Below, piece after piece: positions 9,907-32,559 of a stretch of 46,489 nucleotides of DNA. Under the pieces are notes generated by a model that did no database searches, was not told where the DNA came from, and was given only the letters and a program-made list of their open reading frames with translations. Where the stretch lies: the NCBI GenBank assembly GCA_031268845.1, contig JAIRWP010000086.1, forward strand, positions 1 to 46,489, written 5' to 3'. A program made the translations under genes and the position numbers. Numbering within the stretch: position 1 is the first letter of the stretch; each line of letters begins with the position of its first letter. The stretch comes from Lactobacillales bacterium (lineage in GTDB: Bacteria; Bacillota; Bacilli; Lactobacillales; Streptococcaceae).

Positions 9907-12585
9907 ATGAGTGAAAAGAAAGAACAAAAAAAATTACGTAAAGTAAAGAAAAAATGGATTGTCGTCAGCGCAGGTATATGGGTAGGGTTATTATCCACAA
10001 TCGTTGCAGCTACAAATCCAGAGCTTATTCCTGAGTCAATAAGACAGTTTATTCCTAGCTCAACGTTAGAAAAGCTAAATGCTGACCCAAATGCTCAATC
10101 AATATTATCTGGAATTTTAGGTGAGCAGATAAAAGATCAGACTGGGCAATCAATAAAGTTAAATGATAGTGTTGTTCAACAATTAAATGAAGCAGTAAAA
10201 ACTGTTTTTGCTGAGCAAGTTCCTGATGGGACTCCAAGAATAAATTTAGGTAGACAACAAATTGAAAGTATTTTTGATGTTATAACCTCAAGAGATAATC
10301 ATGATGCTACCCCGCAACAATTATTCCAATCGGCCGCGGAAGTAGTTTTAGAGGAATCAGAACCTGAACCCGTAGTATCACCTGTTATCCAAAAAGTAGT
10401 CGAGCATGTGGAAAAAGTTGCACCAGAATTGATGGAACCACCTAAAACTGACCTTTCTAAATTATTAAAAGAAGAACAAGAATTACAACAACTTTTAACA
10501 AAAGAACAAGAATTACAACAACTTTTAATAAAAGAAAAAAGTGAAGTAGATAATTTAGAACTACAAAAGACTGATCTTCAAAGTGTTGTAGGAGAACTAA
10601 AAGAGCGGATTGAAGAGCATAATGAAGATGTAGAATTTCTTGATGAAAATATAAATGATTATAAAGATGAATTAGATAAAATTAACGATCAATTAGCCAA
10701 TGATAAAGATTCAGAAGGCAATCCTTTCACTGAAGATGCAAGAGTTAAACTTGAGAATAGAAAAGCAAAACTTGAGAAAAGAATTCAGAAAAATAATGAG
10801 AAGAAAAACAAAGTTACTGAAAAAATCTCTAGAAGAACAGTTATTTTAGAAGAACGCAAGGAAAAATTAAGTGATTTAGAACAAAAATTAATTGAACAAC
10901 AAAAGAAAATTGCTGAGCTAGAAGAAAAAAGCAAAGCTTTAAATAGTAGCGCAGAAACACCACCTGGTATAAATGAAGATGCTATTAGAACAGAATACGA
11001 AAAAAGAAGCAGCGAACAAGTTGAGCAAGCTAGAAAAGATTTATCAGATACTATTAGAACAGAATATGAAAAAAGAAGCAGCGAGCAAGTTGAGCAAGCT
11101 AGAAAAGATTTATCAGATACTTTTAAAACAAGAGCAGATAAAGCGATAGAACAAGTAAATGCATTAAAAGGTATGTTTAGCAGTAATCCAACGGTAAAAG
11201 CTAGATTAACGGCAGTAGAACAGGCATTAGTTTCTGAATCTTCAACTGCAACTGAAACAACTGGAGATGCTGCTTCAAGTAAAGAAGACAAAATAAAAGC
11301 AGACCAAGAAGCATATGAGAACGCAAGAAAAGAAGCTGGAATAAAATTAAGAAGTGTTATACCAAAACGCTTTCCTGAAGATAAAGTAGATTTAATTGTT
11401 GCTGCTTATAATGCACTTGATGATAGAAATAAAGATATGATAGCTACTGCTGATCTAGAAAACCCTCCACCATATATTAGTGTTTGGGAGTTATTAACTG
11501 TTGATGATGCTGGAAAAAAACCTTTTCGAAATCCTGCAGATATCAAAACAAAATTAAGTAGTAAACAGTTTGTAGGTGTGCCTAATCTAGATGCAGTAAA
11601 AATTATTAAAAAAGAGGAAGATAGAGAAGAATTAAAAAAACAAATGCTTCAAATGGAAGAAGCTATTAGTGAGCGTTTTAAATTACCATTAAAAAGTAGA
11701 GTTGGTAATTCTAAAGATAAAAATAATAAAATTTATACTGAAATAACTTGGTATAAGCAGTTAATAGAATGGAATCAAGCCTTGGAGGATGGGACTCTTA
11801 CAGATGCGGATGTATGGAAGAAAAAACCTCTTGTTAGTGCATTGTCAAGAAAAAGTGGTGTTGAGCAATTAGAAGCTTTTTTAGCTAGCCCTGCTAATAA
11901 TTTAAATAATGTGAAAGCGCGTGGTGAATTTGCTGCTTTAATCTTTGGAAATAGTAGTTACAATCATCCAGATAATTTAAAAGCTGCTTTAAATGTAAAA
12001 AAACGTTTCGGGTTAGATATTTCTAATAATTTGTCTAAAATATATAATATGCAAAATTTTGTTAATTCATTAATGGTTTTGAACCAATGGCTTGAAAGCA
12101 ATACAAATGTATCAACAGTGTCAGCTATTCCTGATAAGATTGGTACAGGAAGAAAGGCAGAATCTATGAAAGATTTAAAGGCATACCTTTCAAGCCTAAC
12201 GCCAGTAAAATCAAAAACACCAGATATTCAATTAGATGAAAATGGTTTTGAAAAATTAACTTTAGCTAAACGAATGAGTCTTAATTCATATTCTGAACCA
12301 ATTATTAAAAAATTAGACGGTGATTATGATACTTCTACCCTTAGAATAGCTTTACGAGATAAAGGATTTGAAGTAACAAAAACAGATGATTTTATAAAAT
12401 TATTGCAAAATTTTCAATCACAGTTATTGAGTGGTGATTTATCTCAGGAATTGAAGGATAAAGGATTTAAATTATTGGTTGCGGAAGAAACTCCGGAAGA
12501 AACTTCTACTGATGCAGGAGCAAATATACCACCACCACCACCTCCTCCTCCGCCGCCGCCGCCGCCGCCGCCGAAAAAAGGCTAA
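9907..12585 (+). CDS. Large coiled-coil protein with signal anchor and polyproline tail
   Basis: I do not recognise the family of this 892-residue protein. It has a basic N-terminus followed by one hydrophobic segment (about residues 17-35, ending in VAATNPE), so it is exported or membrane anchored. Residues 180-350 are Glu/Lys/Gln-rich with heptad-like coiled coil, including a doubled QELQQLL motif. A 23-residue unit (starting IRTEYEKRSSEQ) occurs twice in tandem at 360-405. Residues 430-870 look like a mixed helical region without known motifs. The protein ends in 15 consecutive prolines then KKG, with no LPXTG sorting signal. It stands alone, with a strong terminator after it and only an A-rich weak ribosome site before the ATG. 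A surface adhesin or host-interaction role is speculation. Confidence 0.75.
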   Translation: MSEKKEQKKLRKVKKKWIVVSAGIWVGLLSTIVAATNPELIPESIRQFIPSSTLEKLNADPNAQSILSGILGEQIKDQTGQSIKLNDSVVQQLNEAVKTVFAEQVPDGTPRINLGRQQIESIFDVITSRDNHDATPQQLFQSAAEVVLEESEPEPVVSPVIQKVVEHVEKVAPELMEPPKTDLSKLLKEEQELQQLLTKEQELQQLLIKEKSEVDNLELQKTDLQSVVGELKERIEEHNEDVEFLDENINDYKDELDKINDQLANDKDSEGNPFTEDARVKLENRKAKLEKRIQKNNEKKNKVTEKISRRTVILEERKEKLSDLEQKLIEQQKKIAELEEKSKALNSSAETPPGINEDAIRTEYEKRSSEQVEQARKDLSDTIRTEYEKRSSEQVEQARKDLSDTFKTRADKAIEQVNALKGMFSSNPTVKARLTAVEQALVSESSTATETTGDAASSKEDKIKADQEAYENARKEAGIKLRSVIPKRFPEDKVDLIVAAYNALDDRNKDMIATADLENPPPYISVWELLTVDDAGKKPFRNPADIKTKLSSKQFVGVPNLDAVKIIKKEEDREELKKQMLQMEEAISERFKLPLKSRVGNSKDKNNKIYTEITWYKQLIEWNQALEDGTLTDADVWKKKPLVSALSRKSGVEQLEAFLASPANNLNNVKARGEFAALIFGNSSYNHPDNLKAALNVKKRFGLDISNNLSKIYNMQNFVNSLMVLNQWLESNTNVSTVSAIPDKIGTGRKAESMKDLKAYLSSLTPVKSKTPDIQLDENGFEKLTLAKRMSLNSYSEPIIKKLDGDYDTSTLRIALRDKGFEVTKTDDFIKLLQNFQSQLLSGDLSQELKDKGFKLLVAEETPEETSTDAGANIPPPPPPPPPPPPPPPKKG
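10984..11121 (+). repeat. Tandem 69-bp repeat inside the coiled-coil gene
   Basis: Copies at 10984-11052 and 11053-11121 differ at only two positions and encode the same 23 residues (IRTEYEKRSSEQVEQARKDL plus three more), so the duplication is recent or kept homogeneous. In-frame copy-number change would lengthen or shorten the coil. Confidence 0.9.
12529..12573 (+). repeat. CCN trinucleotide tract encoding 15 prolines
   Basis: Four CCA, three CCT and eight CCG codons in a row form the C-terminal polyproline tail. The pure CCG run in an AT-rich genome is a likely site for slipped-strand length variation. Long proline runs usually need EF-P for translation. Confidence 0.9.
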
Positions 12586-12759: not shown

Positions 12760-13111
12760 ATGAATTCAGTAACGGATGATTTGTTGTTTAAACTGGTATT
12801 TGGGGATGAGCGGAATAAGAATGCTCTGATCCACTTATTAAATAGTGTTGTTGGTTTTCAGATTTCCGAAGTTGACATTCGCAAAACAGAGATGACCCCA
12901 GAGTTTATCGGCGGAAAAGAGTCGCGCCTTGACGTGCTTGCGACTGATGAAAAAGGGCGGCTTTACAATGTTGAGCTGCAAAAACAAAATGATATAAACA
13001 TGTGTGAGCGTTCGTTATTTTATTGGTCGGAAGTGTTTTACAAACAGCTGGACAAGGGGGAATCGTATGACCTCTTGCGCAAAACGATTTGTATTAATAT
13101 TTTAGAATTTA
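12760..13111 (+). pseudogene. Truncated Rpn-family (PD-(D/E)XK) recombination nuclease
   Basis: The first about 117 codons match the N-terminal half of Rpn/PDDEXK transposase-like nucleases: TDDLLFKLVFGDERNKNALI, then the nuclease core ESRLDVLA and YNVELQ. A complete protein is usually near 290 residues. After KTICINILEF the sequence switches abruptly at about 13112 to the 3' end of an unrelated DUF6273-like gene in another frame, so the remainder here is not Rpn. It keeps a good promoter and AGGAG ribosome site, so a chimeric peptide of 135 residues could still be made, but it lacks the C-terminal half and is probably inactive. Confidence 0.8.
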
Positions 13112-13309
13112 AATTATGTAGCTGTTGGAGGAGATCTTTGGACAAATTTTGTGACTGGCTTTTCTAACAGTGGTACTCAATATCCAAATTATACATGGCT
13201 GCGTTCGCCGCTCCACGATCCTTATGGCGCTGCGCGCGTCGGTGGTGATGGTTCTGTCATCCGCTACTATGCTCTCGCGCTCCGTCCAGCTTGCTGGATT
13301 AACATCTAG
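13112..13309 (+). pseudogene. 3' fragment of a DUF6273-like variable protein gene (candidate DGR variable region)
   Basis: Starting at codons for NYVAVGG and ending in ALRPACWINI and TAG, this 66-codon piece is homologous to the last part of the intact gene at 31741-32529. It has no start of its own and is fused to the broken Rpn gene. The outer parts are almost identical at the DNA level to the other copy: 19 bases of TGGCTGCGTTCGCCGCTCC on the left, and more than 40 bases from CTCGCGCTCCGTCC past the stop codon on the right. The core at 13214-13273 is completely different, and 19 of its 20 codons end in C or T. It could be a dead variable region or a silent donor cassette. Confidence 0.75.
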
Positions 13310-13322
13310 GCTCAAAATCTTC

Positions 13323-13337
13323 TCCCTGAAAAAGGGG
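13323..13337 (+). other. Small hairpin just downstream of the variable region
   Basis: TCCCT, a GAAAA loop and AGGGG form a 5-bp hairpin 14 bases after the stop codon. The intact relative has a matching hairpin at 32545-32559 with loop GAGAA. Known DGR variable regions are followed by a short GC-rich hairpin needed for efficient retrohoming; there is no T-run, so it does not look like a terminator. Confidence 0.55.
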
Positions 13338-13366
13338 CGAGGGGGCTTGTGTTGTTTTACAATTAG

Positions 13367-13511
13367 GTCATAAAAAGGGAGATCTTTGCGACAAATTATG
13401 ATATGCGTGTCCATGCTTCACTAATTAACAGACAACGTGGTAAACCTACTTTAAAACCAAAAATTATCTATGATAACTGTGCTTGTCAAAAAAGCAAAGG
13501 AACTCATTTGG
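13367..13511 (+). pseudogene. Reverse transcriptase fragment (DGR-like)
   Basis: One frame reads VIKREIFATNYDMRVHASLI and then KPKIIYDNCACQKSKGTH before running into the 3' end of ligA. This follows the family pattern of DGR and related reverse transcriptases, in which R-E-I-x-A-x-x-x-R-D-R-x-V-H-H-A-L precedes a segment ending A-C-R-x-x-K-G-T-H-x-A. Both the upstream finger region and the catalytic YxDD palm domain are missing, so it is a dead fragment of about 48 codons. It lies 57 bases after the variable-region hairpin, the side where a DGR polymerase is expected. No template repeat is visible between them. Confidence 0.65.
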
Positions 13512-15542
<2,031 letters not shown>

Positions 15543-30177: not shown

Positions 30178-30495
30178 CTAAATATCAAGAATTTGTTTCA
30201 ATTTTTCAGATAATAATTTCATTTCTTCACTTAATAATTCTCCAATTTTTTCGTTTAGTAATTTTTTATTGAAAGAAATAATTTTATCTGTCATCACATA
30301 GCTTGTTTTGTTTAAGCCATTTTTATCTGTTGGTTTAATTTTCAATCTCGTAACGATATTTTCTGATTTATAACTGGTAAACAAGGAAAGAATGACAGAA
30401 TCAAACAAATATTTATCTGATTGAATAATAACAACAGGTCTTGCTTTACTTGCATAATTAGAATTCCGTAATGTCCAAATTTCACCACGTTTCAC
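30178..30495 (-). CDS. MazF/PemK-family mRNA interferase toxin
   Basis: The 105-residue protein starts MKRGEIWTLRNSNYASKARP and continues VVIIQSDKY, the MazF/PemK active-site region with the conserved Arg of the ARP motif. It should cleave mRNA at short sequences. The GTG start at 30495 lies inside the end of the upstream RelB-type antitoxin gene (14-bp overlap), with AGGAG nine bases before it. Pairing of a MazF toxin with a RelB/DinJ antitoxin, rather than MazE, is a hybrid combination. Confidence 0.82.
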   Translation of the reverse strand: MKRGEIWTLRNSNYASKARPVVIIQSDKYLFDSVILSLFTSYKSENIVTRLKIKPTDKNGLNKTSYVMTDKIISFNKKLLNEKIGELLSEEMKLLSEKLKQILDI

Positions 30496-30733
30496 TTTTC
30501 AATACTCCTAAAGATAGATCTGTTGCAAAATCCGTCGCTTCCTTTTCGCTTTTAAAAGGCTCTGCAACAATTGTTGGTTCATCTAAACGCAATGGAATTG
30601 TATGTGTTTTGGCAATTCTTGTAACAAACATACGCATAGCGGTAGACAAATCTAGTCCATAATCTTTGGCCACTTTTTGTGCCTCTAACTTTATATCTTC
30701 ATCTACACGAGTTGCAATTTGCAAAGTTTTCAT
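30482..30733 (-). CDS. RelB/DinJ-family antitoxin paired with MazF
   Basis: The 83-residue protein (MKTLQIATRVDEDIKLEAQK, then LDLSTAMRMFVTRI) has the ribbon-helix-helix domain of RelB/DinJ antitoxins and a C-terminal toxin-binding segment. It precedes and overlaps the MazF-type toxin gene, and probably represses the pair. Confidence 0.85.
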   Translation of the reverse strand: MKTLQIATRVDEDIKLEAQKVAKDYGLDLSTAMRMFVTRIAKTHTIPLRLDEPTIVAEPFKSEKEATDFATDLSLGVLKSETW

Positions 30734-30822
30734 AACAAATACTCCCTTTCTGTTATCTTATAGTTACATTATATAACTCATTTGAACGAGAAGAAAGCCA
30801 TTTATTTTTTTCAAATGATTTT

Positions 30823-30945
30823 ATATGTCTTTAGTAATATTTCCGTTAAACAAACAATTAGCCGTTAAATCAATTATCCATACCAAGTAATCTGCTATTT
30901 TTTGATTCATTTGCTTTACCCCTGCACATTTAACATGACTTATCT
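30823..30945 (-). repeat. Partial duplicate of the DUF3791 gene start and its upstream region
   Basis: This stretch closely matches 30008-30130, covering the first about 30 codons (MNQKIADYLVWIIDLTAN) and the upstream sequence, then breaks off. The two copies lie either side of the MazF-RelB pair in direct orientation, suggesting duplication or insertion of that pair between them. Confidence 0.75.
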
Positions 30946-31194
30946 ATCACTATAATGACCACGTATTGAATAAATCTCCAAAACTTCATTTTCAATTCGA
31001 AAAACTAATCGATCTTTTTTCATTACCGAAATACTATATAATCCACTTAAATCATGTTTTAATGGCTCAGCACCATCATAGCCATTTCTTTCAATTTGTT
31101 TAATTTTTGCATTAAGCTTTTTTAAGTAAGTTTTATCCTTGGTTTGCAAGTTTTCATATTCAGACCATGCGCTATCTTCCCACAGCTTCTTCAC
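30940..31194 (-). CDS. YoeB/Txe-family toxin
   Basis: The 84-residue protein has the YoeB/Txe pattern: WEDSAWSEYENLQTKDKTYL at the start, then GAEPLKHDLSGLYSI and the C-terminal RIENEVLEIYSIRGHYSDR with the conserved His-Tyr end. It should cleave mRNA at the ribosome. It starts with GTG directly after the antitoxin stop codon, so the two are translationally coupled. Confidence 0.88.
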   Translation of the reverse strand: MKKLWEDSAWSEYENLQTKDKTYLKKLNAKIKQIERNGYDGAEPLKHDLSGLYSISVMKKDRLVFRIENEVLEIYSIRGHYSDR

Positions 31195-31455
31195 TTATTC
31201 TACCTCGAAAAGTTCATGTTCCGAATGATTTCCCTTTTCAAACGATTCTTTAGCTTTTCTTAAATAATCTAAATTTTCTTTAGAATAAAACGGATCACTT
31301 ACTCTAGGAGTAAATGGCAGAGCACCATCATCAACAATTCGCTTCAAAGTCATCGTTAAAGCTGTACTTAAATTCATGCCCATTTCATTTAAAATAATAT
31401 CAGCATCTTTTTTTAATTGTTCATCTACTCTAAAATTAATTGCTGTTGTTGTCAT
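31195..31455 (-). CDS. RelB/DinJ-family antitoxin paired with YoeB
   Basis: The 86-residue protein starts MTTTAINFRVDEQLKKDADI with the LNEMGMNLSTALTMTLKRIV ribbon-helix-helix. It usually partners RelE/YafQ; here its toxin is YoeB-like. I chose the ATG at 31455, with AAGGA 11 bases upstream; an ATG at 31467 overlaps the ribosome site. Confidence 0.85.
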   Translation of the reverse strand: MTTTAINFRVDEQLKKDADIILNEMGMNLSTALTMTLKRIVDDGALPFTPRVSDPFYSKENLDYLRKAKESFEKGNHSEHELFEVE

Positions 31456-31549
31456 AATTGACACCATCCTTATATTTTATAAAGCGATTATACAATATAT
31501 CCTTTACAAATTCATTAAAAATCACACAAATCAACCTTGAGTTAAAAAG

Positions 31550-31570: not shown

Positions 31571-31740
31571 CTTGTATTTGGGATTTGACAACAGTTTTGT
31601 GGGTGTTTTTAGTGACGCAATTCAGCTCTTTACTTCACTTCTCAAAGCTTTTTTGCTATATATTATTTAGTAATTATTATTTCATTTCGTTTTCAAAAAA
31701 TAATCAAATTATTTATTGAAAATTAATGGAGGGTATCATC

Positions 31741-32529
31741 ATGAATCAAAAAATGTTTAGGTTAGAAGGTAAAAAAATATTAGCTTTATTTTTAACTGTG
31801 TTTTTGTGCGTTTGTTTAACTCAAGTTAAACAAGTAGCCAGCGCAGTAACTCTTAAACAAAAAAACGGCCAACCAATTATGGCAATAGGTCAATTAGTTA
31901 ATTTCGTAGGAACGTGCGGCTATCAAGGTATAGGAACACCACCTGAGCACCAACAAGATCAAACAGACACCTGGATAGTCATGAAAATAAAGGGTAGACA
32001 AGCGATTATTATTAAGCAAAACCCCATAGCAGTGCAAATGTACAACAAAGCTGGCGAGAGATTTGCAATATATGCGAACTCTGATATAAAGCAAACTATA
32101 AGCAGTTGGTGGAGTGTAGCCTGCTCCCAAAGAATAGACGGCATACCAGCACAAAATTATGCACTACCGGTAAAACTAAACGGAGAAAACCAATGCAATC
32201 CATTTAAGTTTTGCATAGCTGATCAAAGCAAATACGAAACAACCGTCGACCCAAATCCACAAAACATCACAAAAGCTTTTGTTCCATCGCTGATAGATGT
32301 TAACTCAAACCCAAAAAACTACTATGTAGATGCTGGAGAAGTTGCTTGGACGAGTTTTGTGTCTGGCTTTTCTCGCAGTGGTGGTCAATATCCAAATATT
32401 ACATGGCTGCGTTCGCCGCTCCGCATTCATCTTAACGCTGCGGTCATCAGTGATGATGGTGCTACCTACAGTAGCGCTGTCCACTATAAATCTCTCGCGC
32501 TCCGTCCAGCTTGCTGGATTAACATCTAG
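31741..32529 (+). CDS. Secreted DUF6273-like variable protein (candidate DGR target)
   Basis: The 262-residue protein has a signal peptide (cleavage probably after QVASA, residue 35) and no sorting signal. Its C-terminal half matches the DUF6273 pattern, ending with TWLRSPL, a variable core (residues 228-251) and LALRPACWINI; this recalls C-type-lectin-like variable proteins of DGRs. The ATG at 31741 follows GGAGGG at seven bases. DNA flanking the core is nearly identical to the broken copy at 13112-13309, while the core is different in sequence and four codons longer. A conserved hairpin follows the stop. No polymerase or template repeat is adjacent, so diversification would have to come from elsewhere. 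Confidence 0.75.
   Translation: MNQKMFRLEGKKILALFLTVFLCVCLTQVKQVASAVTLKQKNGQPIMAIGQLVNFVGTCGYQGIGTPPEHQQDQTDTWIVMKIKGRQAIIIKQNPIAVQMYNKAGERFAIYANSDIKQTISSWWSVACSQRIDGIPAQNYALPVKLNGENQCNPFKFCIADQSKYETTVDPNPQNITKAFVPSLIDVNSNPKNYYVDAGEVAWTSFVSGFSRSGGQYPNITWLRSPLRIHLNAAVISDDGATYSSAVHYKSLALRPACWINI
32422..32493 (+). other. Hypervariable core of the variable protein gene
   Basis: The 24 codons between the conserved CTC and CTCGCGCTCCGTCC blocks share little with the 20 codons at 13214-13273. Twenty-two of 24 end in C or T, against the A/T-ending preference of the surrounding genes. This is what adenine-specific mutagenesis of AAY codons in a DGR template would leave. Confidence 0.6.
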
Positions 32530-32544
32530 GCTCAATGATCTCGC

Positions 32545-32559
32545 CTCCTGAGAAAGGGG
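32545..32559 (+). other. Hairpin after the variable protein gene
   Basis: CTCCT, a GAGAA loop and AGGGG form a 5-bp hairpin 15 bases past the stop codon, equivalent in place, stem and loop to the one at 13323-13337. Confidence 0.55.

Follow-up and report, generated by a model that had tools for sequence, protein, structure and literature searches.

Probable remains of a chromosomal diversity-generating retroelement between a truncated nuclease gene and ligA in a Streptococcaceae genome

Introduction

A stretch of 400 bp beside ligA in a Lactobacillales genome of the Streptococcaceae raises the question of whether a diversity-generating retroelement (DGR) once resided there and, if so, what has become of its parts. 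The locus lies in a window of 46,489 nucleotides (the whole stretch of DNA that was analysed, on contig C17) from a genome of 1.2 Mb in 97 contigs with 95% completeness, and positions given below without a contig are those of the window. A preliminary description had read these bases as a deleted DGR, and we find this reading supported in substance: the reverse transcriptase (RT) remnant is nearest to the RTs of intact DGRs, and paralogues of the adjoining gene carry a hypervariable block between constant ends. We put the probability that these 400 bp are what is left of a chromosomal DGR, with a proposed history that includes later rearrangement, at about 0.92.

Layout of the locus

From 5' to 3', the locus consists of a PDDEXK_2 gene that breaks off at 13116, the 3'-terminal part of a DUF6273-like gene, a hairpin within a 3' flank, an RT piece and ligA on the opposite strand. 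The left flank is the 5' part of a truncated gene for a PDDEXK_2 (Rpn/transposase-type) nuclease (12760-13116, plus strand; Pfam PF12784, E 4e-33), which shares 86% DNA identity with an intact 280-aa copy on contig C47 up to 13116, where the homology stops, just as expected from the proposed left cut in an Rpn-type nuclease gene. The last 193 bp of the DUF6273-like target gene follow (13117-13309, plus strand); they contain the variable region V1, read ...WLRSPLHDPYGAARVGGDGSVIRYYALALRPACWINI* with the stop at 13309, and share 63% amino acid identity (E 1.2e-18) with the C-terminus of an intact paralogue at 31741-32526. A 3' flank that spans the hairpin (13310-13363, plus strand) is common to V1 and to a further copy, V4, on contig C19 (98% identity over query positions 126-180), and the bases of V1 and V4 diverge past 13363. 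The RT remnant occupies 13373-13507 on the plus strand.

On the right, the wreck is bounded by ligA (13512-15515, minus strand), which lies outside of it. We reject the proposal that the wreck cuts into this gene, since ligA has the full length of 667 aa also found in a sister species (91% identity) and merely abuts the wreck; DNA homology between the two species ends at 13506. A possible microhomology at the junction of variable region (VR) and RT, TTTTACAATT, is present also in the STREP2 RT gene, but its spacing is off by five bases and we do not claim it.

Two observations concern the surroundings of such loci. At 12520-12585, an 892-aa protein that is rich in coiled coils and has a hydrophobic segment at its N-terminus ends in a run of 15 prolines and KKG. 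Another species of the genus has a decayed DUF6273 piece adjoining decayed PDDEXK_2 pieces (G003:C31:12528-13314).

The reverse transcriptase remnant

The frame VIKREIFATNYDMRVHASLI...KIIYDNCACQKSKGTH at 13367-13510, with its pieces present where the preliminary description had placed them, is homologous to RTs. Searched against 297 Streptococcaceae genomes, a fragmented set with one genome per species, its three best matches are full-length RTs at 45-49% identity, with E-values (computed per genome) of 2.1e-10, 2.9e-10 and 4.0e-6. Frameshift-tolerant alignment lifts the score from 122 to 137, compared to a maximum of 38 among 40 shuffles, and sets MLH*LTDNVV opposite LLHCLCDNYL, which suggests a decayed RT gene that has probably shifted frame twice and, when read with these shifts, contains an internal stop. 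What survives corresponds to about residues 67-113, i.e., about 47 of about 345 residues, and falls short of an intact DGR-clade RT gene.

The proposed check against RT profiles gave a divided answer, with no match of the fragment alone to Pfam, NCBIfam, PADLOC or PDB and a PHROGs match only at E 0.03, while the match to the three full-length RTs of the family is clear. We ascribe the silence of the profiles to a fragment that is too short and too broken for them. Plasmid searches likewise gave no match. Because the remnant spans neither motif 4 (SQ) nor YxDD, its class is assigned from its nearest sequence relatives.

Intact DGRs in related genomes

All three best-matched RTs sit in intact DGR cassettes, found in the Streptococcaceae MAG UW_MP_STREP2_1 (L007), in Lactococcus chungangensis CAU 28 (L008; G035) and in Lactococcus formosensis (L009). 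The preliminary description had suggested looking in relatives for an intact polymerase beside a matching repeat, and these three genomes of the family indeed each have an RT together with a template repeat (TR) and VR pair. Each of the RTs has LGNxxSQ, and (I/V/L)GxxxSQ in motif 4 is a signature of DGR RTs (PMC3521204). Mismatches between TR and VR fall exclusively on adenines in the MAG (18 of 32 adenines, 0 of 72 other bases) and in L. formosensis (17 of 27 and 0 of 63) and are strongly biased to adenines in L. chungangensis, where three VRs depart from the TR at 15-17 of 31 adenines and at 3-7 of 78 non-adenine bases. Scanning strictly without gaps for TR/VR pairs recovered that of L. formosensis and missed the other two, which were found by BLAST.

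The cassette of the MAG is ordered VR target, Avd, TR and RT, its Avd-type gene being a homologous ORF. NCBIfam NF033474 detects Avd in L. formosensis (E 4e-11) and L. chungangensis (E 1.6e-7), in both cases under the curated cut-off. In L. formosensis (DGR at L009:1-5090), the Avd-type ORF is followed by two extra ORFs ahead of the RT, the first of which looks, by eye only, like an HRDC-type accessory protein. In L. chungangensis, a single TR matches several VRs on separate contigs and encodes LRSAGNNYYNAGAVNNGNFNNNNNVNNSLPVRP, which matches V1, V2 and V4 by position. Since the flanking genes that were seen are ordinary chromosomal ones, these intact DGRs look cellular. As a side observation, the several remote VRs of L. 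chungangensis CAU 28 lie mostly in partial genes at contig ends (L008, L050, L051, L052, L057), and its DGR targets appear by eye to be surface-protein-like with InlB-type repeats.

Variable regions and target genes

The genome under study carries three copies of a variable-region block WLRSPL ... LALRPACWINI*, which we call V1, V2 and V4. The V1 block (13196-13309, plus strand) comprises a core at 13214-13273, delimited by comparison with V2 and V4 and bounded by the constant WLRSPL and LALRPACWINI*, and a constant, IMH-like 3' end at 13274-13309 that has the same sequence in V2 and one difference in V4. V2 (32404-32529, plus strand) lies inside the intact paralogous target gene (31726-32529, plus strand), whose 267-aa product has a hydrophobic, signal-peptide-like N-terminus; comparison with V1, V4 and a sister-species orthologue places its core at 32422-32493. 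V4 forms the beginning of contig C19, so that the assembly breaks within a VR. The flanks of the three copies are identical or one base apart and the copies are of unequal lengths. The genome thus has what a DGR remnant should leave, several copies of a 3'-terminal variable region of the target framed by near-constant flanks, and the proposed conserved tail with a variable region is recovered as a constant LALRPACWINI* end next to a block that is hypervariable among paralogues with the same flanks.

That V1 belongs to the 3' end of a DUF6273-like gene is supported by its similarity to the intact paralogue. PF19789 (DUF6273) itself scores 18.4 bits on the intact V2 protein and 14.5 on the V1 tail at a curated cut-off of 23.5, and we therefore write "DUF6273-like". 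An AlphaFold2 model of the target is of low confidence (mean pLDDT 44.7), too poor for a fold search.

Just past the V1 stop (by 13 nt), a hairpin TCCCT-GAAAA-AGGGG lies at 13323-13337 on the plus strand and recurs in V2 and V4 with GAGAA loops; that of V2, CTCCT-GAGAA-AGGGG, begins 15 nt past the stop (32545-32559, plus strand). In L. chungangensis, the cassette VR is followed by a 10-bp stem with a GAAAA loop, and the hairpin is absent from the remote VRs. The hairpin announced by the preliminary description is accordingly present and recurrent as a 5-bp stem with GAAAA or GAGAA loop in three copies, though in V1 its fold energy is no more stable than that of shuffles.

Among 14 codons that can be aligned jointly in V1, V2 and V4, the 18 variable columns are distributed as 9, 9 and 0 over codon positions 1, 2 and 3 (P 3.7e-5 versus uniform). 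Between V1 and V2, a skew as strong as that of the core is also seen in the 27 codons before it (5, 9 and 1), and we dropped third-position conservation as a core-specific signal after this control; the VR extends further here, or else selection plays a part. Compared to its sister-species orthologue, the V2 target has 23% amino acid identity inside the core and 81% outside, with a codon-position skew at p 0.003 for the core alone and p 2e-4 for the variable part plus the 27 preceding codons, a boundary picked after the data were seen. Such a skew alone does not prove adenine targeting.

These comparisons bear on an improbable alternative, namely that the RT piece does derive from a DGR while V1, V2 and V4 owe their differences to ordinary duplication, to gene conversion and to diversifying selection acting on a surface protein rather than to retrohoming. 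The upstream reach of the nonsynonymous skew, the unequal lengths of the copies and a genome search that found no TR would all fit. This explanation must, however, accommodate that the homologous segment in three relatives is a TR-matched VR with mismatches restricted or strongly biased to adenines, that the V1 and V4 flanks are nearly identical, even in the hairpin and the rest of the non-coding 3' block, as homing sites would be, and that the RT remnant lies 64 bp beyond one of the VRs.

Three side observations concern the target genes. Two small gene pairs just upstream of the V2 target (30178-31467) are toxin-antitoxin-like by look, and transposase-like ORFs lie downstream of it. DUF6273-like orthologues of two species (L005, G000:C48; L013, G021:C47) have asparagine-rich tails that are almost the same, as though these had been frozen undiversified.

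Loss of the machinery

The preliminary description had also proposed searching this genome for an intact polymerase beside a template repeat, a search that returned only the RT wreck and no TR. The RVT_1 profile has no match in the genome, RT profile searches find 13373-13507 as its sole RT piece, and a DNA search with V1 gives the V1, V2 and V4 blocks as the only real matches. Avd, searched with that of L. chungangensis and without a positive control within the genus, has no match in five genomes of the genus including this one. The sister species has an independent DGR RT wreck, found by RT profile (G028:C101:6205-6664; L237), which covers residues 115-268, contains GLPLGNQTSQ and is cut at YMD of the YMDD motif next to a transposase-like ORF; no RT match turned up in the three further genomes of the genus. 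Because the two RT wrecks have different breaks, decay is seen in two species.

A working DGR could nevertheless hide in an assembly gap, with targets that still diversify and the wreck as a dead second copy. We regard this, too, as improbable: the 97 contigs, the 95% completeness and contig C19, whose beginning inside a VR indicates that repeats broke the assembly, leave it some room, but RT and Avd are single-copy genes that should assemble, the RT profile finds wrecks only, here and in the sister species, and nothing in the other three genomes, and the Avd search is empty in all five. Both a hidden live DGR and an origin of the variation by gene conversion and selection are less likely than a former DGR. 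Least probable is a fragment of another RT class (Abi, group II intron, retron or DRT), which the shortness of the piece and its poor profile matches (none in Pfam, NCBIfam or PADLOC; PHROGs E 0.03) might allow, but which would have to have landed beside a VR by coincidence while its three best family matches are RTs of intact DGRs and a wreck of the same genus has GLPLGNQTSQ. None of the outcomes that the preliminary description had named beforehand as speaking against it (no RT match, a better match to some other family, relatives without polymerase or template repeat) occurred.

A proposed history of the locus

We propose that a DGR once operated on this chromosome with a cassette that was probably ordered as in intact relatives, i.e., target gene with VR, hairpin, Avd, adenine-rich TR and RT. 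Its RT would have made cDNA from TR RNA with random bases at adenines, and this cDNA would have taken the place of the VR in a secreted DUF6273-like (possibly C-type-lectin-like) protein, with at least three targets in this genome, V1, V2 and V4. The DGR would thereby have rewritten the C-terminal face of several copies of DUF6273-like proteins that are probably secreted. Subsequent rearrangements involving the mobile nuclease gene may then have fused its 5' piece to the target's 3' end and deleted Avd and TR as well as the two ends of the RT, whose middle part was left next to an intact ligA. The DGR looks dead, incapable of acting in this genome now; two sister targets that it probably shaped persist, and under the proposed history the surviving targets are frozen variants.

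Relation to known systems

The remnant is a fresh relic of an already known type of system. It most resembles the DGR of L. chungangensis CAU 28, which has an RT 49% identical to the remnant, several targets, a homologous VR segment in DUF6273-like proteins and a GAAAA-loop stem after the cassette VR, but differs in retaining Avd, TR and an intact RT and in targets with InlB-type repeats (by eye). The DGRs of MAG UW_MP_STREP2_1 and L. formosensis also have an RT homologous to the remnant, along with VR, Avd, TR and adenine-only mismatches; unlike the wreck they are complete, and in L. formosensis two further ORFs separate Avd from RT.

DUF6273 proteins are known as DGR targets from phages: Faecalibacterium prophage DGRs target them with a VR at the C-terminus of the DUF6273 domain (PMC11792537), and a C-type-lectin-like fold has been reported for the DUF6273 tentaclins targeted by gut-phage DGRs (PMC10743442). 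Those systems are phage-borne and intact, whereas the wreck is chromosomal, has a probably secreted target and has lost its machinery. The idea that DUF6273 proteins are little explored as DGR targets consequently stands for cellular Lactobacillales but not for gut phages. The DGR of Bordetella phage BPP-1 has an RT of the same superfamily (the L. chungangensis RT matches Bordetella phage records by tblastn) but is a distant, active phage system with Mtd as target. In a literature search with most subscription journals outside its coverage, none of the titles and abstracts listed described cellular DGRs in Streptococcaceae.

Implications

It is a tentative and rather unlikely generalization that a small-genome Streptococcaceae lineage dismantled its chromosomal DGRs in at least two species and kept the diversified targets as a frozen repertoire, which may still remix by recombination between VR copies without RT. 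The locus makes the death of a DGR visible in a bacterial lineage, with the machinery lost twice over and the target genes retained. The function of cellular DGRs in low-GC Gram-positives could be tested directly in two culturable lactococci with intact chromosomal DGRs, L. formosensis and L. chungangensis, the latter having several targets.
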